DNA of 64,000 nucleotides from contig NZ_JBAJEX010000005.1 in assembly GCF_039822265.1 (NCBI RefSeq), positions 1 through 64,000 of the forward strand, given 5' to 3'. Below the pieces are notes generated by a model. The model was not told where the DNA came from, made no database searches, and saw nothing but the letters and a program-made list of their open reading frames with translations. The position numbers and the translations under genes were made by a program. The DNA is from Thiobacter sp. AK1 (GTDB taxonomy: Bacteria > Pseudomonadota > Gammaproteobacteria > Burkholderiales > Thiobacteraceae). The first letter of the stretch is position 1. Every line of letters starts with the position of its first letter. Positions 18,856-31,147 of this stretch are shown piece by piece.

Positions 18856-19803
18856 ATGCGCGGGATGGCCCTGTCTGCGCGGCTAGCGGCGCTTATGCAA
18901 CCCCTGTCCCGCGAAACCGGCCCGATCGCGCTCACGGCGCGGCGCATCTACATTCTTCCCACACGCCACGGGGTGCTGTTCGCGTTGTTCTTGCTCGCCA
19001 TGTTGGTGGGGGCCGTCAACTACGCCTTGAGCCTTGGCTTTCTGCTGGTGTTCCTGCTAGCGGGTGTGGCACTCGCGGCCATGCTCCACACCTGGCGCAA
19101 CCTGCGCGACGTGGTGGTAAGCCCGCTCGGTGCGACGCCCGCCTTCGCCGGCGGCGAGGCCCAGTTTCATTTCAGTCTGTCCGCGCCCTCCCCGCGCCCC
19201 GCCCTGGTGCTCGCCGCGGGGAGCGCCGCGGTTCGGGTCGATCTCGCAACAGTCACGCCGGTGAATTTGCCTGTGCCCGCACCATGTCGCGGACGGCTTG
19301 CGGCGCCGCGGCTTACCGTGTCCACCAGTTATCCCCTAGGCCTGTTCCGGGCCTGGGCCGTGCTGTATCCGGCGCTCACGACCCTGGTCTATCCCCGTCC
19401 CCTCGACCACGCCCGGCCGCCCCCGATCCCCGACACCGTAAACGGCGCTTGCCGCCGCCCGCTGGGCGAAGGCCGGGGCGATTTCGCCGGCCTGCGCCCC
19501 TTCGTGCCGGGCGATTCGCCCAGGGCTGTGGCGTGGAAGATGCTCGCCCGCGGCGGGCCGCTCGCCAGCAAGCGCTTCCACGGTGAGGCCGACACCACCC
19601 GTGCGCTCGACTGGGCTCATGCACCCGGGGACACGGAGACGAAGTTGTCTTGGCTTGCTCGGGCGGTACTCGATGCTGAACAGGCGGGCGTGCGCTACGG
19701 TCTTTCCCTTCCCGGGACGCGCATTCCGCCTGGGCACGGCAAAGCCCAGCGACAGGCGTGTCTGGCCGCGCTGGCCCTGTTTGGAAAGGCGGATCATGGC
19801 TGA
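18856..19803 (+). CDS. DUF58 domain-containing membrane protein
   Basis: 315 aa. Two transmembrane helices (about 38-57 and 60-78) follow a short N-terminus. A variable beta-rich segment then leads to the DUF58 core around 200-245 (GEGRGDFAGLRPFVPGDSPR...WKMLARGG). It starts 10 bp after moxR and overlaps the next gene by 8 bp, so all three are surely co-expressed. DUF58 proteins have a von Willebrand-like fold; function undetermined. Confidence 0.88.
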   Translation: MRGMALSARLAALMQPLSRETGPIALTARRIYILPTRHGVLFALFLLAMLVGAVNYALSLGFLLVFLLAGVALAAMLHTWRNLRDVVVSPLGATPAFAGGEAQFHFSLSAPSPRPALVLAAGSAAVRVDLATVTPVNLPVPAPCRGRLAAPRLTVSTSYPLGLFRAWAVLYPALTTLVYPRPLDHARPPPIPDTVNGACRRPLGEGRGDFAGLRPFVPGDSPRAVAWKMLARGGPLASKRFHGEADTTRALDWAHAPGDTETKLSWLARAVLDAEQAGVRYGLSLPGTRIPPGHGKAQRQACLAALALFGKADHG

Positions 19804-21805
19804 TACCCTCCTCGCAAGGCGCGAGAGCCTGGCGGTGGTGCTGGGTATCCTGCTGGTGGCGGCTGGACACGCGGCCCATCTGCCGCCGTGGCTTACGCTA
19901 TTGACGGCCACCCTGCTCGGCTGGCGCCTGGCCGCAAGCCAGGGCTGGGTGCCTTTGCCTGGCCGCGGTCTGTTGATCCTGCTCGCACTGGCCTGCGCCG
20001 CGTCCATCCTCGTCGCCTACCATACCCTGTTCGGCCGCGAGGCGGGGGTGGCCATGCTCACCCTCATGGTGGCGCTCAAGCTCATGGAGATGCGCACCCG
20101 GCGCGACGCCGTGCTGACGGTCTTTCTGGGCTGGTTTCTGGTACTCACCCATTTTCTCTATGGACAGGACATCCTGCTTGCCCTGTATCTGTTTACCGCC
20201 ACGGTCTGGTTGCTGGTGGCACTCGCGCTTCTCACCCATCCCGCCCAAAGTGTCCCGGCGGCGATGCGGCTTGCGCTCACCCTCACCATTCAGGCCCTGC
20301 CCCTCGTGGTGCTCTTGTTCGTGCTATTCCCGCGCCTGCCCGGGCCGCTGTGGGGGCTGCCCAAGGACACCTTTGCCGCGCGCAGCGGACTCGACGAAAT
20401 CATGCGTCCCGGGAGCATCAGCCGTCTCGTGCAATCGGACGAGGTGGTCTTCCGCGCCGAGTTCAAAGGCCCGCCGCCCCCTGCAGCCCAGCGCTACTGG
20501 CGCGGCCCGGTACTGGAAATTTTCGATGGTGCAAGCTGGCAGCCCCATCGCGGCGCCGCCGTGTTGCCGGCCGTGGAGGCGGACGGTCCGCCCATCGCCT
20601 ACAGCGTCACGCTGGAGCCCCACGGCAAACCCTGGGTGTTCGCGCTCGAGCTGCCCGACCCACTGGCGCTCGGGCCCCACATGCGCCTTGCGTCCACCTA
20701 CCAGCTTTTCGCAACACAACCGCTCACTCAGCGGCAGCGCTTTGATCTCCTCGCCCTGCCCCAGCACCGACTCGACGCCAACCCAGATCCGCACACCCTC
20801 GCCCGCGCGCTGCAACTGCCGCCTTCGGGCAACTCCCGCGCCCGGGCCCTGGCCGAGCAGATGCGGCGCACGGCGCACTCGGATGGGGAAGTGGTCGAAG
20901 CCGTGCTGCGGCTGTTCCGGGAGCAGGATTTCCGCTACACCCTCACCCCACCCCTGCTTGGGCCCGATGGCGTGGACGAATTCCTGTTCGACACGCGCCG
21001 TGGTTTTTGCGAGCACTACGCGGGGGCGTTCACGTTTCTGATGCGCGCCGCAGGCGTACCCGCTCGGGTGGTGACGGGCTATCAAGGGGGCGAGTTCAAC
21101 GAGCTGGGCGGCTATCTCATCGTCCGCCAGTCCGATGCCCATGCCTGGAGCGAAGTGTGGCTGCCGCAGCGAGGCTGGGTGCGGGTGGACCCCACCGCCG
21201 CCGTGGCCGCCTCACGCATCGAACGGGGCCCGTCCGCCGCCTTGCCGGCAGGGGAGCCCCTGCCCTACCTGCTGCGCAGCCAGCCGCTTTGGCTCAAAAC
21301 CCTGCGCCTTAAGTGGGACGCGCTCAACCACCGTTGGAACCTGTGGGTGATCGGCTTCGATCAGGAACGCCAGGTGGGGCTGTTCGCACGCATGGGGTTT
21401 GGCATCGTCTCCTGGCGTAAGCTCGCCTGGATGCTGCTGGTGGCGCTCGCGGCAAGCTTCATCCTGCTTGCCGCCCTCACCCTGCGTTTGCCGGCCCCAC
21501 GCGATCCCGTGCAAGCGGCGTGGCTACGCTTATGCCGCAAGCTTGCGCGGGCGGGGCTTCCGCGCGCACCCCAGGAAGGGCCACTGGCCTATGCCGAGCG
21601 GATCGGCAAGACGCGGCCCGAGCTGGCCGCGCCCCTCGCGGCGCTGGCGCGCCGCTATGCCGCGCTGCGCTACGGCGGAGAAAACGATCCCCACGCGGCG
21701 CGCGAGTTCGCGCGGCAGGCCGCCGCTTTCCCTGCGCCACGCCCTTGCGGCAAGCCTCACTCGACAGCATCCAGCGGCACCGGCCGTCCCACCGCCCAAC
21801 CCTGA
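19796..21805 (+). CDS. TgpA-like transglutaminase-domain membrane protein
   Basis: 669 aa. The N-terminal DUF3488 region has about five membrane helices (residues 8-190). A periplasmic transglutaminase-like domain holds Cys405 (RRGFCEHYAGAF), His449 (SDAHAWSEVW) and Asp465 (RVDPTAA). A further TM near 545-565 precedes a cytoplasmic DUF4129 tail. The same architecture is found in Pseudomonas TgpA. The catalytic triad is complete; the substrate is unknown. The ATG at 19796 overlaps the DUF58 gene by 8 bp. The 3' end overlaps the opposite-strand GGDEF-EAL gene by 49 bp. Confidence 0.92.
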   Translation: MADTLLARRESLAVVLGILLVAAGHAAHLPPWLTLLTATLLGWRLAASQGWVPLPGRGLLILLALACAASILVAYHTLFGREAGVAMLTLMVALKLMEMRTRRDAVLTVFLGWFLVLTHFLYGQDILLALYLFTATVWLLVALALLTHPAQSVPAAMRLALTLTIQALPLVVLLFVLFPRLPGPLWGLPKDTFAARSGLDEIMRPGSISRLVQSDEVVFRAEFKGPPPPAAQRYWRGPVLEIFDGASWQPHRGAAVLPAVEADGPPIAYSVTLEPHGKPWVFALELPDPLALGPHMRLASTYQLFATQPLTQRQRFDLLALPQHRLDANPDPHTLARALQLPPSGNSRARALAEQMRRTAHSDGEVVEAVLRLFREQDFRYTLTPPLLGPDGVDEFLFDTRRGFCEHYAGAFTFLMRAAGVPARVVTGYQGGEFNELGGYLIVRQSDAHAWSEVWLPQRGWVRVDPTAAVAASRIERGPSAALPAGEPLPYLLRSQPLWLKTLRLKWDALNHRWNLWVIGFDQERQVGLFARMGFGIVSWRKLAWMLLVALAASFILLAALTLRLPAPRDPVQAAWLRLCRKLARAGLPRAPQEGPLAYAERIGKTRPELAAPLAALARRYAALRYGGENDPHAAREFARQAAAFPAPRPCGKPHSTASSGTGRPTAQP

Positions 21806-24162
21806 GCGTAGTGCACCCCCAGCTCGCCTAGCATGGCGAGGATGGCCTCGCTCTCCACGTATTCCGCTACCGTGTGGATATTCATCACCCGCGCCACGTC
21901 GCGCACGGCCTCCACCATGGCGCGGTCCACCGGGTCTGCCACGATGCGGCGCACGAAGGAACCGTCAATCTTCACGAAATCGACGGGCAGGTTGCGCAGG
22001 TAGGCAAAGGAGGACAGCCCCGCGCCGAAGTCGTCCAGGCTGAAGCGGCAGCCCAGACGGCGCAAGCCTTCCATGAAGGTCACGGCCCGCTGCAAGTTGG
22101 CGATGGCCGCGGTCTCCGTGATCTCGAAGCAAATGCGCGCACAGGGCACGCCGTAGTGTTTGAGACGCGTCTTAACCCATTCCAGGAGACGATCGTCCGT
22201 GAGCGACTGGCCGGAGAGGTTGATGGACAAGCACAAATTCCCCGGATGCTGGGCGAGCCACTGGAAGGCGGTCTCGATCACCCAGCGGTCGATGCGCCCC
22301 ATGAGCTGGTAGCGTTCCGCGGCGGCCAGGAAGGCACCGGGCAGGGTCAGGCTGCCATCTTCCTCCTCGAGGCGCAGCAGCACCTCGCCGTGTCGCAGCG
22401 GCTCCTCGCCGGTCACCGCCCGGATGGGTTGCCAGAACAGGCGGAAACGGTTTTGGTCCAGGGCCGCGGCCAGTCGCGCCACCCAGTCCATCTCCTGGGC
22501 CCGGCGCTTGAAATCCACCGATTCCGCCACGTATTCCACGATGCGTCCCCGCCCCTCCTCCTTGGCCGCATAGCAGGCGGTGTCCGCCGCCGAGAGCAGT
22601 TCGGAGACGCCATGCCCGGGCCCGTCGATGGTCACCAGCCCGACGCTGGCGCCGGTGGTGAAGGTGCGGTCTTTCCATAGGAAGCGGTGGTTCTGGAGCA
22701 TGGTGAGCAGCGCCATCCCGATCTCCCGCGCCCGGGTGGCGCTGGTATAGGGCAAAAGCAAGCCAAACTCGTCGCCCCCCAAACGGGCCAGAACGTCATG
22801 CAGCCGCACCTGGGCCTGCATCTCCAGCGCCAGGCGCCGCAACAGCTCGTCACCGGCCACGTGGCCACAGGTATCGTTCACCACCTTGAATTGATCCAGG
22901 TCCACGTAGAGCAGGGCATGCTTGTCGCCGGGACGGGTCACCTCCAGCAACGCTTGCAGGCGCTGTTCGAACTCGGCGCGGTTGTAAAGGCCGGTGAGGG
23001 GATCGTGACTGGCCGCCCAGCGCAGCTTGGCCTGGAGGGTATGGGCCTCGGTGACATCGTGGAACACCAGCACCACGCCCAAGATGTCGCCGTCCCGGTC
23101 ACGAATGGGCGCGGCGGAATCCTCGATGTTGAGCTCGCGGCCATCGCGGCTGATGAGCAGGGTGTGATTGCCCAGCCCCACCACCTGCCCCGTGGCGAGC
23201 ACGGTTTCCACCGGATTGACAATGGGCACGCGGCGGGTCTCGTCCAAGATACGAAAGACCTGGGTGAGGGGTTTGCCGCGGGCTTCGTCTCTTCGCCAGC
23301 CGGTGAGGCGCTCGGCGACTGGATTCATGAAGCTCACCTGGCCTGCCACATCGGTGGTGATCACCGCATCGCCAATGGAAGTGAGGGTGACCTCGGCAAG
23401 CTCCTTCTCTTCCCACAGACGCGCCTCCAGTTCATCCCGCCGCGCCCGCTCCGTGCGCAGCGCCTGCACCATCACGCGGAAGTCACGCGCCAGCTGGCCC
23501 ACTTCGTCCGGCTGCTCATCACCCTCGATGCGCACTTCGAGATCGCCGCTCGCCACGGCATCGGCCGCGGTGGACAGACGCGCCAGCCGCCGCGTCACCG
23601 CCTGCGTCACACCCCAGGCCACCAGCCCGCCCAGCACGATGGCAAGCACGGTAAAACCCACCCCACGCCAGATGAGCCGGCTGATGGCGGCATCCAGGCT
23701 CGCCCGTGAAAACGCCACCCGCGCATAGCCCACGGTACGCCCTGCCACCTCGACTGGATAAACGGCATCCACGATGCCGCCGTGTTCCAGCACCTGTGGC
23801 CCCCCCACGCTCAACAGCCGGCGACTCACCTCGTCGCCCAGCACCTGGTCAAACAAGCTATCGTCGCTGCTGGCACGCACCCGTCCTTGGTCGTCTGTCA
23901 CCAGGGCGAAAGCGAGGTGAGGCACTTGGCGCAGGGCACCGGTGAGGGCATCCAGGGTATCCAGATCGCGGCTCACCAACGACGCGCCGCTACTCGTGGC
24001 AAGATTGCGCGCCAGCGCCCCCGCCTGACCGCGGAACTGTTCCCCCAACAGAATGCGCTCACGGTGAACGAAGTCAGCGGCGATGTAGGCCGACAGAGCG
24101 GCGTGCACCAGGATCACGCTGGCCAGAATGCGGCCACGCAAGGATTGCCAGAATCGCACCAT
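21757..24162 (-). CDS. Membrane-bound GGDEF-EAL c-di-GMP receptor enzyme with HAMP and PAS domains
   Basis: 801 aa. TM1 lies about 11-30, a periplasmic sensor about 31-165, TM2 about 166-188, HAMP 189-245 and PAS about 255-375. GGDEF spans about 383-545 with GGDEF at 462-466 and I-site RLHD five residues before it. EAL spans about 550-801. EAL residues look intact: E in GEVLLRL, N in SINLSGQS, E in EITETA, DDFGAG, K in VDFVKIDG and E in AEYVES. It could therefore make and degrade c-di-GMP. The upstream gene, 5 bp away on the same strand, encodes a periplasmic PhnD-like binding protein, so ligand sensing through that partner is inferred. Confidence 0.93.
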   Translation of the reverse strand: MVRFWQSLRGRILASVILVHAALSAYIAADFVHRERILLGEQFRGQAGALARNLATSSGASLVSRDLDTLDALTGALRQVPHLAFALVTDDQGRVRASSDDSLFDQVLGDEVSRRLLSVGGPQVLEHGGIVDAVYPVEVAGRTVGYARVAFSRASLDAAISRLIWRGVGFTVLAIVLGGLVAWGVTQAVTRRLARLSTAADAVASGDLEVRIEGDEQPDEVGQLARDFRVMVQALRTERARRDELEARLWEEKELAEVTLTSIGDAVITTDVAGQVSFMNPVAERLTGWRRDEARGKPLTQVFRILDETRRVPIVNPVETVLATGQVVGLGNHTLLISRDGRELNIEDSAAPIRDRDGDILGVVLVFHDVTEAHTLQAKLRWAASHDPLTGLYNRAEFEQRLQALLEVTRPGDKHALLYVDLDQFKVVNDTCGHVAGDELLRRLALEMQAQVRLHDVLARLGGDEFGLLLPYTSATRAREIGMALLTMLQNHRFLWKDRTFTTGASVGLVTIDGPGHGVSELLSAADTACYAAKEEGRGRIVEYVAESVDFKRRAQEMDWVARLAAALDQNRFRLFWQPIRAVTGEEPLRHGEVLLRLEEEDGSLTLPGAFLAAAERYQLMGRIDRWVIETAFQWLAQHPGNLCLSINLSGQSLTDDRLLEWVKTRLKHYGVPCARICFEITETAAIANLQRAVTFMEGLRRLGCRFSLDDFGAGLSSFAYLRNLPVDFVKIDGSFVRRIVADPVDRAMVEAVRDVARVMNIHTVAEYVESEAILAMLGELGVHYAQGWAVGRPVPLDAVE

Positions 24163-24167
24163 GACAG

Positions 24168-25073
24168 TCAGCGGGCGATCACTGGTTTGAGGGCGGCAGG
24201 CAGCCCGATCTCGGCGTCATAACGCTCGAGGAAGGCACGAAAGGGCCGGTAGGTCTCATCGCTGGCCCGTTCGAAGCGGTGCTGGCCCAGTTTGAAGCGG
24301 CTGGCATCCACCGTAGGATCGGCTGCCATCGCCGCCAACGTGGCCGCGACTTTCTCCTTGAGCGCCGCCGGCACGTCTGCCCGTGCGACGATGGCATTGT
24401 GCGGCGAGGGATCCGTCACGAATAGCACGGCAAGGCGCGCCGCCTTGTTCGGCTCGTCGCGCTGGAAGGCGCGCAGGAAGCGTACCGACACGCCGCAGGC
24501 GGCGGCATCGCCGGCGCCCGCATTGAGCAGGGCCGCCACCTGGGTGCCCGTGTATTGCAATCGCAAACTTTTCACGTCCACCCCATGACGGTGCAAATAC
24601 CAGAGGGGCAAGAGGGTCGCCGCCACCGCTGTCGCCGAGGGAAAGCACAGGGTCTCGCCCGACAGTTGCCTCAACCCAGTGATGCGGCCCTCACGGGTGA
24701 CCAGGGCGCCGCGGAAATCCTCGTCCGGAAAATTCTTGGCGATCACGTGGTAGCCCACGCGCTGGGCGATCAGGGTTTGAACCGGATTGGGCAGGGCGAA
24801 GTGGTAACGCCGGGCCACGAGCCGCGCCTCGAATTCGGAATAATCCTTCGCCCCCTCCAGCTGGAACTTCACGTTCGGAATGTGCTGCTCCAGGTAATCG
24901 AGTATGGGTTGATACGCGGCGACCAGCTCCTGGGGATTGAGATGGGGGTGAAAGCCAAATACGTAAGTCGCTTGCGCGCGTCCCCCCCCGGGGTTCACGG
25001 GCGTCGGGCGGTATTCCGCGGCATGGCTGGTGGCGAGGGCGAGAAAAAAGATTGCCGCCCAAAATCGTCGCAT
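24168..25073 (-). CDS. PhnD-like periplasmic substrate-binding protein, probable sensor partner
   Basis: 301 aa with a signal peptide (1-18, cleavage after SHA). The remainder is a PhnD/SsuA/transferrin-type binding fold: YVFGFHPHLNPQELVAAYQP, then LARRYHFALPNP-type first-domain motifs and FVTDPSPHNAIVARADVP in the C-terminal part. No permease or ATPase gene is adjacent; instead the gene is 5 bp upstream of the GGDEF-EAL membrane enzyme. A role as the ligand-binding half of a c-di-GMP signalling pair, like NspS with MbaA in Vibrio, is inferred. Ligand unknown; phosphonate binding is not implied by the fold. Confidence 0.85.
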   Translation of the reverse strand: MRRFWAAIFFLALATSHAAEYRPTPVNPGGGRAQATYVFGFHPHLNPQELVAAYQPILDYLEQHIPNVKFQLEGAKDYSEFEARLVARRYHFALPNPVQTLIAQRVGYHVIAKNFPDEDFRGALVTREGRITGLRQLSGETLCFPSATAVAATLLPLWYLHRHGVDVKSLRLQYTGTQVAALLNAGAGDAAACGVSVRFLRAFQRDEPNKAARLAVLFVTDPSPHNAIVARADVPAALKEKVAATLAAMAADPTVDASRFKLGQHRFERASDETYRPFRAFLERYDAEIGLPAALKPVIAR

Positions 25074-25359: not shown

Positions 25360-26664
25360 TCAGGGCTGTGGCTTTTGCCCGCGCGGTACGTCAGGCAGCT
25401 GCTTCGGCGCGTGGTCATGCTCGTCGGGATCGATGGCCCAAAGGCGGTGGGCATCCAGAAGGAGCCGGTAGCGCGCCTCATTGGCCTCGAGGGTTGCGAG
25501 GCTTGCAGCCAGCCGCGCCTCGAGGGCGAGCCGGCGCGCAGTCAATACACCGGACAGGCCGCCTTCGCCCAAGGCATAGGCGCGAGCGGCCAGCGCCGCC
25601 GCCGCTTCCATTTCCCGCGCCGCCGAGGCCTGGGCCATCGCCGCGGCATACGCCGCCTGCGCGCCATGAAACAGGTTCTCGGCTTCCGCGGCGAGCTTGG
25701 CCGCAACCACAGCCTCGCGCTGAGCGGCCATGTCGGCTTCGGCGCGGCTTGCGTCCACTGCCGCGGCGCGCGCCGCACCGCCCAAGGGAACGGTCAGTGT
25801 CAGGCCAATGATGTGCTCCTCGCCGCCCCGCTCCCGCGCGGCGCGCACACCCACGGTGGGATCGGGTATACGCTCGGCCTCGGCCCGCGTCAGCGCCAGG
25901 CGCGCCCGCCGCGTTTCCGCCTGGGCGGCAGCCAGCTCATGGTTGTGGGCAAGCACCTCCTCGCGCCAGTACGCGCCATCGAATTCCACCGGGCGCGGTT
26001 GCGCGATCTGCACGGCATCCGGCAGGGTGAGGCCGGGGAAACGACGCATGAGTTCGGTGGCCGCTGCCTGCGCTCGGAAGCGGGCCTGGGCGCGATTGGC
26101 CTCGGCCTGGGCGAGGGCCGCCTGCGCCGCAAGGCGTTCCAGGCGAGGGGCATCGCCGGCGTGGATGCGCTTGTCCACCGCCACGAGTTGTTGTTGCAAC
26201 AAAGCCACCTGTTCCTCCCAGAGCGCGGCTTGGCTGCGCTCCTTGAGCCAGGCGAACCAACCTTTGAGCAAGCTCCGCGCCGCCTCGTGTAGCGCATCGC
26301 CCAGCGCCAGCCGGGCCTGGGTCACGCCTTGCTCGCCCAGGGCCCCATCCAACGCGGCCTTACCCGGCAGCCGTAGCGTCCGCTCCACAGCCAGGTCCCA
26401 CTCCCTGTATTGCGCGGTGGGCGCGGCACGCACATCCCGCTCTTGCCCCGTGACGCGCACCACGGTTTCGTGCGGTCCGGCAAGAAGACGTTTGCGGGTG
26501 GCTTCCTGCATGCCAATGCCGGCGCGGGCCGCCACCACACTCGGCACCCGCTCCAGCACTTGGCGCACCACCGACGGCGGCGGCAAATCGGGCACAGCCA
26601 ACTCCTCGGCGGCGTGGGCGGTGGCGACGATAAGCGTGAGCGACAGCAGGCACGCGCGTTTCAT
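25360..26664 (-). CDS. czcC: Heavy-metal efflux outer membrane protein, CzcC/TolC family
   Basis: 434 aa with a signal peptide (1-18). Two outer-membrane-efflux repeats rich in long Ala/Glu/Arg helices follow, as expected for a TolC-like tunnel. No lipobox. It forms the outer membrane channel of the tripartite RND pump encoded by the next genes upstream. The ATG at 26664 has GGAGG-like spacing and overlaps the DUF3240 stop by four bases. It is the last gene of the operon, an unusual position for czcC, which often comes first. Confidence 0.87.
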   Translation of the reverse strand: MKRACLLSLTLIVATAHAAEELAVPDLPPPSVVRQVLERVPSVVAARAGIGMQEATRKRLLAGPHETVVRVTGQERDVRAAPTAQYREWDLAVERTLRLPGKAALDGALGEQGVTQARLALGDALHEAARSLLKGWFAWLKERSQAALWEEQVALLQQQLVAVDKRIHAGDAPRLERLAAQAALAQAEANRAQARFRAQAAATELMRRFPGLTLPDAVQIAQPRPVEFDGAYWREEVLAHNHELAAAQAETRRARLALTRAEAERIPDPTVGVRAARERGGEEHIIGLTLTVPLGGAARAAAVDASRAEADMAAQREAVVAAKLAAEAENLFHGAQAAYAAAMAQASAAREMEAAAALAARAYALGEGGLSGVLTARRLALEARLAASLATLEANEARYRLLLDAHRLWAIDPDEHDHAPKQLPDVPRGQKPQP

Positions 26665-26963
26665 GCCAGCCTCCCGAAACCAGACACCGGCATGGTCCAC
26701 CAGGCGATCTCTGGACTAACGAGGCTCTCGCGCAGGTGTGCAAGCAAAGCATCGGCCTTGTCGCGCTCGGTGACGATTTGCACCATCACGCGCACCACGC
26801 GACCACGCACCTGCTCGGCGCTGCCGCGGTACACCACCCCTCGACCGTGACCGTCTACCACCTGGGTCGTGAATCCTGGCACCCATTCCGGATGTTCCAG
26901 CAAGTGGTCTACCAGGGCCTCCTCCAGGCTGCGGGGCAGGACGATGGTGAGACAAGTCATCAT
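26661..26963 (-). CDS. DUF3240 family small protein of metal RND operons
   Basis: 100 aa, soluble: MMTCLTIVLPRSLEEALVDH at the N-terminus, then VPGFTTQVVDGHG and VMVQIVTERDKADALLAHL. This pattern looks like a ferredoxin/PII-like fold, and DUF3240 proteins are found beside CzcA/CusA genes. Both ends overlap neighbours by four bases (ATGA with czcA, ATGA with czcC), so it is translated as part of the operon. A regulatory or metal-sensing role is inferred. The start may be either of two consecutive ATGs (26963 or 26960). Confidence 0.82.
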   Translation of the reverse strand: MMTCLTIVLPRSLEEALVDHLLEHPEWVPGFTTQVVDGHGRGVVYRGSAEQVRGRVVRVMVQIVTERDKADALLAHLRESLVSPEIAWWTMPVSGFGRLA

Positions 26964-29900
26964 GTCACGCGCTCCTTGGCGGATTCGACGCCGAAACGGG
27001 AGAAGAGGATGGGAAGCAGCACGAGGGTGAGTAGCGTGGAGGTGACCAGACCGCCAATGACCACGATGGCGAGCGGACGTTGGATCTCCGATCCGGGCCC
27101 GGTGGCAAACAGCAGCGGGACCAGGCCGAAGGCGGCGATGGAGGCCGTCATCAGCACGGGTCGCAGGCGACGCTGGGCGCCTTCCACCACGGCCTGCGCC
27201 AGGCTCATGCCCTGGGCGAGCAACTGGTTGAAATGACTCACCATCACCACGCCATTGAGCACCGCGATGCCAAGCAGTGCGATGAAGCCAACCGAAGCTG
27301 GCACCGAGAGATACTCCCCGGAGATCCAGAGGGCGCACACACCACCGATCATGGCGAAGGGAATGTTGGTGAGGACCAAAAGCGCCTGCCGCACGGAGCG
27401 GAAGGTGGCAAACAACAGGAGGAAGATGAGCAACAGCGCCACCGGCACGACGATGGATAGACGCGCCGCGGCACGCTGCTGGTTTTCGAACTGGCCGCCC
27501 CATTCGAGACGATAGCCAGCAGGCAGCGGCACACGTGCCGCCACCGCCGCCCTGGCATCGGTCACGAAGCCCACCAAATCCCGCCCGCGCACGTTAGACT
27601 GGATCACCGCCATGCGCGCCGCGTTTTCGTGTTCGATTTTCACCGGCCCATCCGTGCGGCGAATGTGCGCCACGGCGGAAAGCGGCACCTGGCCTGCCGG
27701 TGTCACCAGCTGCACGCGAGCGAGGGCATCCGCTCCCCGACGCAGGGCATCGTCACCACGCAGCAAAAGCGGCGTACGCCGGCCCGGTTCCACCACCACG
27801 CCCAGTATGCGGCCTTCCACCAGGGCACGCAGCGCGTTCTGGATGTCTTCCACGTTGAAACCCAGGCGCCCAGCCGCGAGGCGGTCGATATCGATTTGCA
27901 GATACTGCACCCCCTCGTTCTTTACCGTATAGACGTCCTGGCTGCCCGGCACCTGACGCAGCACCTGCTCGATTCTGCGCGCCAGTCCATCCAGGGTGGC
28001 GGCGTCCGGCCCGAACACCTTCACCGCCACGTCACCCCGCACGCCGGTGAGCATCTCTGACACCCGCATCTCGATGGGCTGCGTGAAATTCACCGCCACG
28101 CCCGGGAACGCTGCCATCACCTTGCGCAACTCATCGGTAAGCCATTCCTTGTCCGGCTTGCGCCACTCGTTGCGGGGTTTGAGCACGAGGAAGCTGTCGG
28201 TGTCGTTGAAACCCATGGGATCGAGCCCCAGCTCGTCGGAACCGGTGCGGGCGACGATGCCCCGCACTTCCGGCACCCGCGCGAGCACCGCCCGCTGCAC
28301 GGCGAGATCCAGGCGTGTGGACTCCTCTAGGCTAATGGAAGGCAGTTTCACCAGCTGCATGATGATGTCGCCCTCGTCCATGGTTGGCATGAAGGTTTTG
28401 CCGATGCGGGTGTACACGATGGCCGTGGCCGCGAGGAGGACCAGCGCCACCACCACGACCTGTTTCTGGTGGGCCAGTGCCCACGCCAATAGCGGCCGGT
28501 ACAGGGCAGACAGTTTGCGTGGTAGCCAGGGCTCGCCATGGCCCACGTGGGTGAGCAAAAACGACGAAGCCACCGGAATCACGGTGAGCGCGAGCAGCAA
28601 CGACGCGGACAGGGCGAACACGATCGCGAGCGCCACCGGGATGAACAGCTTGCCTTCCAATCCCTGTAGCGTGAGCAGCGGCAGGAAGACGATGACGATG
28701 ATGGCAATACCGGAGGCGACCGGGACGGCCACCTCACGCACCGCGCGATAGACGACATGGAGATGCGGCACGGGGCTTTCCGCACGGCGCTGGGCGAGAT
28801 GGGTCACTATGTTTTCCACCACTACCACCGCCGCATCCACCAGCATGCCTATGGCGATGGCCAGCCCGCCCAGACTCATGAGATTGGCCGACATGCCCGA
28901 AAGACGCATGAGGATGAAGGTGGCCAGGGCCGCCAGGGGCAATGTCAAGGCCACCACCAGCGCCGCGCGCAGATTGCCCAGAAACAAAAGCAGCAGCACC
29001 AGAACCAGCACGATGGCCTCCGCCAGCGCGCGCGCCACCGTGCCCACCGCTCGTTCCACCAGGTGGCCACGGTCGTAGAACACTTCGATTCTCACCCCGG
29101 GAGGCAGGCTTCTTTCGATTTCTTTGAGCTTGGCGCGCACACCCTGCACCACCTGCCGCGCATTGGCACCACGCAGGCCTAGTACCAGGCCTTGCGCGGC
29201 CTGGCCGCGTCCATCGCGGGTCACAGCGCCATAACGAGTGAGGCTACCCACCCGCACCGTGGCCACATCGCCCACCCGCACGACTTGGCCGTCGCGTCGC
29301 GTCACCACGATGGCCGCAAGATCTGCGAGGGTGCGCACCGCGCCCTCCGCGCGCACCACCAGCACTTCCTCGCCATCGTGGAGACGCCCGGCGCCGTCGT
29401 TGCGATTGTTGTTGACAAGCGCCGCTTCCAGCTCGGCCATGCTCACGCCCCGTGCCGAAAGCCGGACCGGATCCACCGCCACCTCGAAGGCGCGGGCGTA
29501 GCCCCCCAAGGTGTTGACGTCCGCCACACCAGGCAGGGTGCGCAACTGCGGACGGATCACCCATTCCAGCAGGCTGCGCCGCGCTTCGAGGCTCAGCCCC
29601 CCGCCCTCCACGGTAAACATGAACATCTCGCCCAGCGGCGTGGTGATAGGCGCAAGCCCCCCGCCCACACCCGGCGGCAGCGCGCCCAGAATGCCGTTTA
29701 GACGTTCCGCCACCTGCTGGCGCGCCCAGTAGATGTCGGTGCCGTCCTCGAAGTCGATGGTGATGTCCGCCAGCCCATACTTGGACACCGAGCGCAGCAC
29801 GCGTTGATGGGGAATACCCAGCATCTCCAGCTCGATGGGTGTCGTGATGCGCGCCTCCACTTCCTCCGGCGTCATGCCCGGCGCCTTCATTACCAGCTTC

Positions 29901-30040
29901 ACCTGGGTCGTGGAGACATCGGGAAAGGCGTCGATGGGCAGGTCGCGGAACGCGATCACGCCCGCCCCCACCAACAGCAAGGTGAGCACCCCCACAAGCA
30001 GACGCTGGCTGAGCGCGAATTCGGTGAGGCGGCCAAGCAT
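26960..30040 (-). CDS. czcA: Heavy-metal efflux RND transporter, CzcA/CusA family
   Basis: 1026-aa inner membrane proton-driven pump. TM1 is near 14-31, with DFEDGTDIYWARQQVAERL in the porter domain. The TM4 motif GMLVDAAVVVVEN sits at 398-410 (Asp402, Glu409). The Czc (Co/Zn/Cd) type typically has DFG before DGA in TM4, while this DAA form resembles the CusA-like pattern, so the metal is uncertain. Flanked by the adaptor gene (3 bp upstream) and DUF3240, giving the order B-A-DUF3240-C. Confidence 0.93.
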   Translation of the reverse strand: MLGRLTEFALSQRLLVGVLTLLLVGAGVIAFRDLPIDAFPDVSTTQVKLVMKAPGMTPEEVEARITTPIELEMLGIPHQRVLRSVSKYGLADITIDFEDGTDIYWARQQVAERLNGILGALPPGVGGGLAPITTPLGEMFMFTVEGGGLSLEARRSLLEWVIRPQLRTLPGVADVNTLGGYARAFEVAVDPVRLSARGVSMAELEAALVNNNRNDGAGRLHDGEEVLVVRAEGAVRTLADLAAIVVTRRDGQVVRVGDVATVRVGSLTRYGAVTRDGRGQAAQGLVLGLRGANARQVVQGVRAKLKEIERSLPPGVRIEVFYDRGHLVERAVGTVARALAEAIVLVLVLLLLFLGNLRAALVVALTLPLAALATFILMRLSGMSANLMSLGGLAIAIGMLVDAAVVVVENIVTHLAQRRAESPVPHLHVVYRAVREVAVPVASGIAIIVIVFLPLLTLQGLEGKLFIPVALAIVFALSASLLLALTVIPVASSFLLTHVGHGEPWLPRKLSALYRPLLAWALAHQKQVVVVALVLLAATAIVYTRIGKTFMPTMDEGDIIMQLVKLPSISLEESTRLDLAVQRAVLARVPEVRGIVARTGSDELGLDPMGFNDTDSFLVLKPRNEWRKPDKEWLTDELRKVMAAFPGVAVNFTQPIEMRVSEMLTGVRGDVAVKVFGPDAATLDGLARRIEQVLRQVPGSQDVYTVKNEGVQYLQIDIDRLAAGRLGFNVEDIQNALRALVEGRILGVVVEPGRRTPLLLRGDDALRRGADALARVQLVTPAGQVPLSAVAHIRRTDGPVKIEHENAARMAVIQSNVRGRDLVGFVTDARAAVAARVPLPAGYRLEWGGQFENQQRAAARLSIVVPVALLLIFLLLFATFRSVRQALLVLTNIPFAMIGGVCALWISGEYLSVPASVGFIALLGIAVLNGVVMVSHFNQLLAQGMSLAQAVVEGAQRRLRPVLMTASIAAFGLVPLLFATGPGSEIQRPLAIVVIGGLVTSTLLTLVLLPILFSRFGVESAKERVT

Positions 30041-30043
30041 GCG

Positions 30044-31147
30044 TCAGTCCTGGCCCACACCCGTAACCATGGCCTTCAGCGCCGCCACGCCCTTGACCGC
30101 GACTTGCGCCTGATCCGGCAAATTGCCGCTCACCACCACTTGCCCAGCCTCTTCCTCCAGCAGCGTGACCGGCATCATGGCAAAGCCTCCACGTGTCTTA
30201 ACGAAGACATGAGCCCGTCCCTGATGGCGTGCCACCGCCGCCGCTGGCAGTCGCCAGGCCCGCCCCGCTGCCGCGCTTTCCACGCGTGCCTCGACGAACT
30301 GACCGGGACGCAAGGCGCCAAGCCCAGTCGTCAGCTCCGCGCGCACCGGCAGCGATTGGCTGGCAGCGTCCATGCTCGCGCCCACCGCCACCACCCGTCC
30401 GCGCGCACCGTCCACGCTCACCCGCGCACCGGGGCGAATCGCCAATCCATCCGCCAAGCCTGCCTGCAACTCGATCCACAGGGGTGCCAAGCGCGCGATC
30501 CGGAACAGGGGCGTGTTGGCCTCCACCCGCTGCCCCGGCTGAACCAGCTGCTCCAGCACCACCCCCGCGGCGGGTGCAACGAGGTTAAGCGTGCCCGACA
30601 GGCCGCGCGCAGCCGTCAAGGCGGCGATGGCCGCCTCACTCATGCCGTACAGGCGCAACACCTGACGCCGCTCCGCATAAGCCGCCTGTGCCTGGGCGTG
30701 GGCCGCTTGCGCAGCCAAAAGCCGCCCCTCGGCGATGATGCCTTCGCGATGGAGAGCCTCCTCGCGACGCAAGGTCGTCTCCGCCAGGCCTAACTGGCTT
30801 GCCGCCTGCAGGTACTCGCGCTGTGCTTCAAGCAGCATGGGACTTGCCAGTACGGCCAGAGGCGTCCCCGCGCTCACCGTCTGCTGGGCCGCCACACGCA
30901 CTTGCTCCACCAACCCCGCCACGGGCGCGGCGACGACCCGGATCTGGGAAGGCGGGATGGTCACGCGGCCAGGCAGCAGGCGCACCGTCGCGGCCTGCGC
31001 AGCCGGCAACGCCTGGGTCACCACCCCCAGCGACTGCATCTGGGCCGGGGTAAGGGAAACCGCCAGCGGCGGCTCGGCCGCAGCCGCGGCAACAGGCAAG
31101 GCGAAGAGGAAGAAGACGACCATGCAAGAGACCCGGGCGACCCACAT
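30044..31147 (-). CDS. czcB: Efflux RND periplasmic adaptor subunit, CzcB family
   Basis: 367 aa with an N-terminal signal (about 1-23, ending AAAAA-EPP). Membrane-fusion features are present: a lipoyl-like half (GLVEQVRVAAQQTVSAGTPL), an alpha-helical hairpin at about 105-165, the second lipoyl half (VAPAAGVVLEQLVQPGQRV), a beta-barrel and a membrane-proximal domain. It links the inner-membrane pump to the outer channel. First gene of the leftward operon; no metal-responsive regulator is encoded nearby. Confidence 0.9.
   Translation of the reverse strand: MWVARVSCMVVFFLFALPVAAAAAEPPLAVSLTPAQMQSLGVVTQALPAAQAATVRLLPGRVTIPPSQIRVVAAPVAGLVEQVRVAAQQTVSAGTPLAVLASPMLLEAQREYLQAASQLGLAETTLRREEALHREGIIAEGRLLAAQAAHAQAQAAYAERRQVLRLYGMSEAAIAALTAARGLSGTLNLVAPAAGVVLEQLVQPGQRVEANTPLFRIARLAPLWIELQAGLADGLAIRPGARVSVDGARGRVVAVGASMDAASQSLPVRAELTTGLGALRPGQFVEARVESAAAGRAWRLPAAAVARHQGRAHVFVKTRGGFAMMPVTLLEEEAGQVVVSGNLPDQAQVAVKGVAALKAMVTGVGQD

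Follow-up and report, generated by a model that had tools for sequence, protein, structure and literature searches.

The best match among described systems for the gene pair analysed here comes from Xanthomonas citri, in which the PhnD-fold protein XAC2383 and the diguanylate cyclase XAC2382 form a pair; the two proteins reportedly interact, the binding protein is said to modulate the cyclase, and pairs homologous to this one are said to occur with other outputs in several phyla. Teixeira et al. 2018 (J Biol Chem 293:10767, doi 10.1074/jbc.RA118.003475), to which this account is attributed, appears among the references of PMC10380989. AioX and ArrX are PF12974 arsenic sensors coupled to membrane kinases (Badilla et al. 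2018, PMC5908839), and the ligand residues of AioX are Tyr88, Cys106, Tyr131, Ser161, Ser163, His192 and Asp210 (PMC5908839). In NspS-MbaA of Vibrio cholerae and Sinorhizobium meliloti the binding-protein gene lies directly upstream of, and overlaps, that of a GGDEF-EAL receptor with two transmembrane helices (PMC9993111).

The present pair lies in the window, which is the whole 64,000-nucleotide stretch of DNA that was analysed (Thiobacter sp. AK1, contig NZ_JBAJEX010000005.1). It consists of a PhnD-fold protein of family PF12974 without a transporter, whose gene adjoins that of a receptor with two transmembrane helices, a periplasmic Cache domain and a c-di-GMP output. By fold, gene order and domain content, it is of the same kind as XAC2383-XAC2382. 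Nevertheless, its output is GGDEF-EAL with a PAS domain, whereas XAC2382 is a cyclase alone, and the window protein is nearer to PtxB than to XAC2383 and belongs to a subclade that has diverged, with changes in the pocket. As in AioX-AioS-AioR and ArrX-ArrS-ArrR, a PF12974 fold would sense together with a membrane receptor, and 40 of 78 relatives are indeed kinase-coupled; unlike AioX and ArrX, the window protein has no equivalents of Cys106, S161/S163 and His192, the output is c-di-GMP, and the partner is a GGDEF-EAL protein in place of the histidine kinase and XSR cluster of AioX, ArrX and ArxX. NspS-MbaA shares the position of the binding-protein gene directly upstream of a GGDEF-EAL receptor with two transmembrane helices, but NspS is a PotD-like polyamine-binding protein of a different Pfam family, whereas only PF12974 was matched here, and NspS-MbaA is a functional analogue, not the nearest relative. 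The phosphonate and phosphite importer proteins PhnD, PtxB and HtxB share the fold and the Pfam family; in contrast to these, the present protein has no permease or ATPase, its S-T-S and His positions are replaced and it scores below the PhnD equivalog cut-off.

A search of the openly accessible literature for PhnD together with GGDEF found nothing, and the link to XAC2383 was recognised via structure 5ub3. The preliminary description of the locus had presented it as a different binding fold in the role of NspS; the coupling stands but the novelty does not, XAC2383-XAC2382 and AioX/ArrX having preceded it. The arrangement is real but not the first case, and the altered pocket is its distinctive part.

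The gene pair and its predicted structure

Features of the window bearing on the binding protein, its receptor and their neighbours
Feature	Position	Strand	Remarks
Periplasmic solute-binding protein	24168..25073	-	PF12974 (PhnD/PtxB-type class II fold), 301 aa, start ATG
Membrane receptor TM-single Cache-TM-HAMP-PAS-GGDEF-EAL	21757..24162	-	801 aa, start ATG
Receptor sCache_3_2 domain, residues 42-163	23674..24039	-	Pfam; where the binding protein presumably docks
Receptor GGDEF domain, residues 384-539	22546..23013	-	Pfam; RLHD I-site and GGDEF intact
Receptor EAL domain, residues 563-794	21781..22476	-	Pfam; EVL/N/E/DD/K/E/Q motifs present
CusA/CzcA-type (CzcCBA-type) heavy-metal RND efflux operon	25360..31147	-	Membrane-fusion protein, RND pump, DUF3240, outer-membrane protein
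TgpA-type transglutaminase	19583-21805	+	Flanking gene

Both genes of the pair are read from one strand, and the stop codon of the binding-protein gene (24168-24170) is separated by 5 bp from the receptor ATG (24160-24162). PF12974 is the sole Pfam family matched by the binding protein (7e-43), and its N-terminus, MRRFWAAIFFLALATSHA-AEY, resembles a Sec signal as judged by eye. The AlphaFold model of the binding protein (pLDDT 90) gave Foldseek matches to PtxB, PhnD, ArrX, AioX and XAC2383, with TM-scores of 0.71-0.74 against importer proteins of the PhnD/PtxB/HtxB type. The XAC2383 structures 5ub3-5ub7 are matched in both fold and profile; by profile comparison PtxB (E 1e-21) is closer than XAC2383 (E 4e-10), and XAC2383 was not the top match in several PDB queries. 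In four other members of the family (L039, L040, L041 and L042) the N-terminus is lipobox-like (LAGC, LASGC or LAAC), and to judge from these residues their binding proteins, though not that of the window, may be membrane-anchored.

Hydropathy places two transmembrane segments in the receptor, at about residues 10-32 and 160-190, and an extracytoplasmic part of about 130 residues, while Pfam borders for HAMP (186-236) and PAS (260-370) fall between those of the Cache and GGDEF domains given in the table. The model of residues 1-250 (pLDDT 94.5) matched the single-Cache sensor domains of WalK, CitA, DcuS and DctB. The I-site RLHD (453) is followed after five residues by GGDEF (462), and the EAL motifs are EVL 593, N648, E680, D710/D711, K731, E767 and Q787; by its motifs, the receptor appears to have the intact A-site, I-site and EAL catalytic residues expected of bifunctional GGDEF-EAL enzymes. 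These results agree with the preliminary description, which had claimed a PhnD-like fold, a stop codon 5 bp before the receptor, a membrane GGDEF-EAL enzyme with HAMP, PAS, I-site and all EAL key residues, and a periplasmic domain of about 135 residues; the signal peptide that it also claimed is borne out as far as the Sec-like N-terminus goes.

Conservation of the pair and exchange of outputs

With the binding protein as the only query, 84,980 species genomes were scanned; 303 relatives were identified, and 80 loci were retrieved, mostly from metagenome-assembled genomes, of Beta-, Gamma- and Alphaproteobacteria, Campylobacterota, Desulfobulbales, Nitrospirae and other groups. The same pair, which it had been proposed to seek in other genomes, was found at nearly every locus: a receptor gene lies immediately 3' of the binding-protein gene in 78 of the 80, a frequency that far exceeds chance, with 77 receptors starting within -53 to +21 bp and the two genes commonly overlapping by 4 bp. 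Of the two exceptions, one (L132) reaches the contig end and the other (L118) is without an ORF. The best matches in 60 relatives are likewise followed by receptor genes. In an independent, class-wide draw of 274 genomes, with receptors tested by a sensor HMM, the close family was present at nine loci in eight other genomes and had an adjacent receptor at all nine, and the next tier of relatives had one at 10 of 13 loci; the close family forms a clade separate from both this tier and the paralogues in the window's own genome. At three loci from other members of the window's taxonomic family (L044, L045 and L047) two PF12974-like genes flank a single GGDEF-EAL gene.

The sensor region of the window receptor, comprising two transmembrane helices, Cache and HAMP, was matched in BLAST by 76 of the 78 receptors, whose outputs are 40 kinases, 22 GGDEF and 12 GGDEF-EAL proteins, with four cut off or without assignment. 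Pfam analysis of 51 receptors (that of the window, that of its congener and 49 from the 80-locus scan) identified sCache_3_2 in 48, HAMP in 47, HATPase in 29, GGDEF in 21 and EAL in 13. At least 13 switches of output type are needed on the tree of binding proteins, and binding-protein and sensor distances are correlated (r = 0.74; the permutation maximum was 0.18), a co-divergence that is owed in part to the common ancestry of neighbouring genes. The binding protein thus keeps its sensor while the output is swapped, as would be expected if it acts via the periplasmic domain. Most of the close homologues are kinase-coupled, so that a c-di-GMP output need not have been the original role. At L166:1255-3584 a GGDEF receptor adjoins a binding protein that, among solved structures, is closest to ArrX and AioX, which suggests that relatives of the arsenic sensors also feed c-di-GMP enzymes.

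It is highly probable that the products of the two genes form a single bipartite receptor with a c-di-GMP output. The binding protein, presumably secreted, has a cleft that would receive a small molecule, and one state of the protein would dock on the Cache domain of the receptor; the signal would then pass the second transmembrane helix and HAMP, perhaps modified by PAS, and shift the balance between synthesis by GGDEF and breakdown by EAL. In this scheme we infer the secretion, the docking, the ligand dependence and the direction of the c-di-GMP response. The Cache domain could itself be able to bind ligand, its single-Cache fold being related to CitA and DcuS, a kind of domain that can bind small molecules directly, and this raises the possibility that the receptor senses the ligand on its own, with the binding protein serving only for its delivery or buffering. 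This scenario is quite improbable: the co-divergence and near-invariable pairing fit a protein-protein interface better, and the residues best conserved in the sensor (D66, E72, G93, A97, D110, P136, G145 and R148) have no known tie to a ligand site.

Binding pocket, gene neighbourhood and ligand

The pocket was mapped by HMMER profile alignments to PtxB, 3n5l and the ArrX sequence, at about 20% identity with the motifs well aligned. The S-T-S helix start corresponds to Ala149-Leu/Val150-Ala151, the His to Gln178 and Cys106 to Asn96, and among 63 homologues these residues are found in 62 (Ala149), 62 (Leu/Val150), 63 (Ala151), 63 (Gln178) and 63 (Asn96). Hence, throughout the family, A-L/V-A, Gln and Asn stand in place of the oxyanion-binding S-T-S, His and Cys of PhnD and AioX, and where AioX, ArrX and ArxX have Cys106, S161, S163 and His192 the window protein has Asn96, Ala149, Ala151 and Gln178. 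Since these positions are replaced, binding of phosphonate or arsenic is unlikely, and from the residues present the ligand is probably not a phosphonate. The window protein, that of its congener and that of a Sulfuricella (L067), all with GGDEF-EAL partners, form a supported subclade on a long branch that has gained C143, C193 and R198 and lost the E179 and W196 of the family. A dithiol site formed by C143 and C193 was considered and rejected, both residues lying in second-lobe β-strands of the model, off the mapped ligand positions.

Upstream of the pair, and 286 bp away from the binding-protein gene, the RND efflux operon runs on the same strand; its PII-like DUF3240 gene separates the genes for the pump and the outer-membrane protein. 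Operon and pair occur in the same order in the congener (genome G001, locus L038); a functional link between the two is possible. In a Helicobacteraceae metagenome-assembled genome (L070:3825-8888), arsC-arsR-arsB lies directly upstream of a related binding-protein/GGDEF-EAL pair. All-against-all comparison of the flanking ORFs identified no ligand-suggesting neighbour common to the family, the recurring neighbours being chiefly response regulators, which accompany kinases, and housekeeping synteny in Gallionellaceae. The CzcA neighbour is confined to the window's genus, bar a weak RND match in L088, and ars genes were found in L070 only; the efflux operon and ars neighbours are therefore hints, and a ligand identity drawn from gene neighbourhood was rejected given their presence in only one or two lineages. 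A promoter scan upstream of the pair found nothing above chance.

These neighbours, together with the relationship to AioX and ArrX and the family-unusual cysteines C143 and C193, raise the possibility of a sensor for arsenic or heavy metals, of the AioX/ArrX kind and linked with the CzcCBA operon, a role that would be compatible with a bipartite receptor. However, this is very unlikely for three reasons: first, the arsenite-binding Cys106 of AioX is here an invariant Asn96, and its S-N-S and His are A-V-A and Gln; second, the two cysteines are not at mapped ligand positions; third, the pair follows a CusA/CzcA operon only in the window and its congener and arsenic genes only in L070. A broader proposal for the subclade, itself unlikely, is that it constitutes a c-di-GMP receptor for a ligand beyond the known PF12974 repertoire, such as a thiophilic metal species, with a pocket (A-V-A, Gln178, Ser196 and Arg198, with C143/C193 nearby) rebuilt from the oxyanion site, and that it would link metal efflux to biofilm behaviour.

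Search for a transporter partner and significance

The genome (2.54 Mb in 32 contigs, 99.97% complete) contains seven PF12974 genes and nine PF00528 matches, and across the whole genome no PF00528 permease lies within 9 kb of any of the seven. No PhnE scored above the cut-off in the genome, the sole PhnE-like match (30.8 against 216.7 bits) belonging to a pair of permeases encoded on another contig. The binding protein scores 53.7 bits against the PhnD equivalog TIGR03431, for which the cut-off is 261, and the PhnCE permease/ATPase partner expected of a PhnD importer protein was not found. No ABC permease or ATPase gene adjoins the pair, which is flanked by the TgpA-type transglutaminase and the CzcCBA-type operon, as the claim of an orphan binding protein required; a transporter operon with a close paralogue elsewhere, which had been named as grounds for abandoning that claim, was likewise absent from the vicinity of all seven PF12974 genes.

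The other six PF12974 genes have varied surroundings. One follows a GGDEF gene by 12 bp (L050:4761-7205), so that the order of the pair is reversed; another has a histidine kinase gene after it; a third is three genes ahead of a GGDEF-EAL gene, from which rsmE and a gshA-like gene separate it; and two are without an obvious signalling neighbour. The sixth is fused in one ORF to a transmembrane segment and a coiled coil, with no kinase domain in frame (L053:6411-7676), and is perhaps a truncated TtrS-like sensor.

That the binding protein is instead an orphan part of an ABC importer encoded elsewhere, its receptor neighbour being coincidental or only co-expressed, accords with the classical role of PF12974 proteins as PhnD/PtxB importer components and with the nine PF00528 matches, but is scarcely credible when none of these lies near a PF12974 gene, the PhnE-like match is sub-threshold and distant, and the receptor adjacency at 78 of 80 loci in several phyla would be left unexplained. 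Given the conserved adjacency, the common sensor module and the lack of a transporter near any PF12974 gene, the functional coupling of the orphan binding protein to its receptor, as first proposed from the window, is well supported.

Annotation routinely labels PF12974 proteins as parts of phosphonate importers. In summary, a large PF12974 clade is consistently paired with Cache receptors that have interchangeable kinase or c-di-GMP outputs and is without the phosphonate pocket, and for hundreds of genes the importer label is probably wrong. Identification of the ligand would reveal the signal fed into a receptor module that is frequent among iron-, sulfur- and methane-oxidising bacteria, and the swapped outputs on one sensor provide a natural set for how binding proteins drive Cache receptors.
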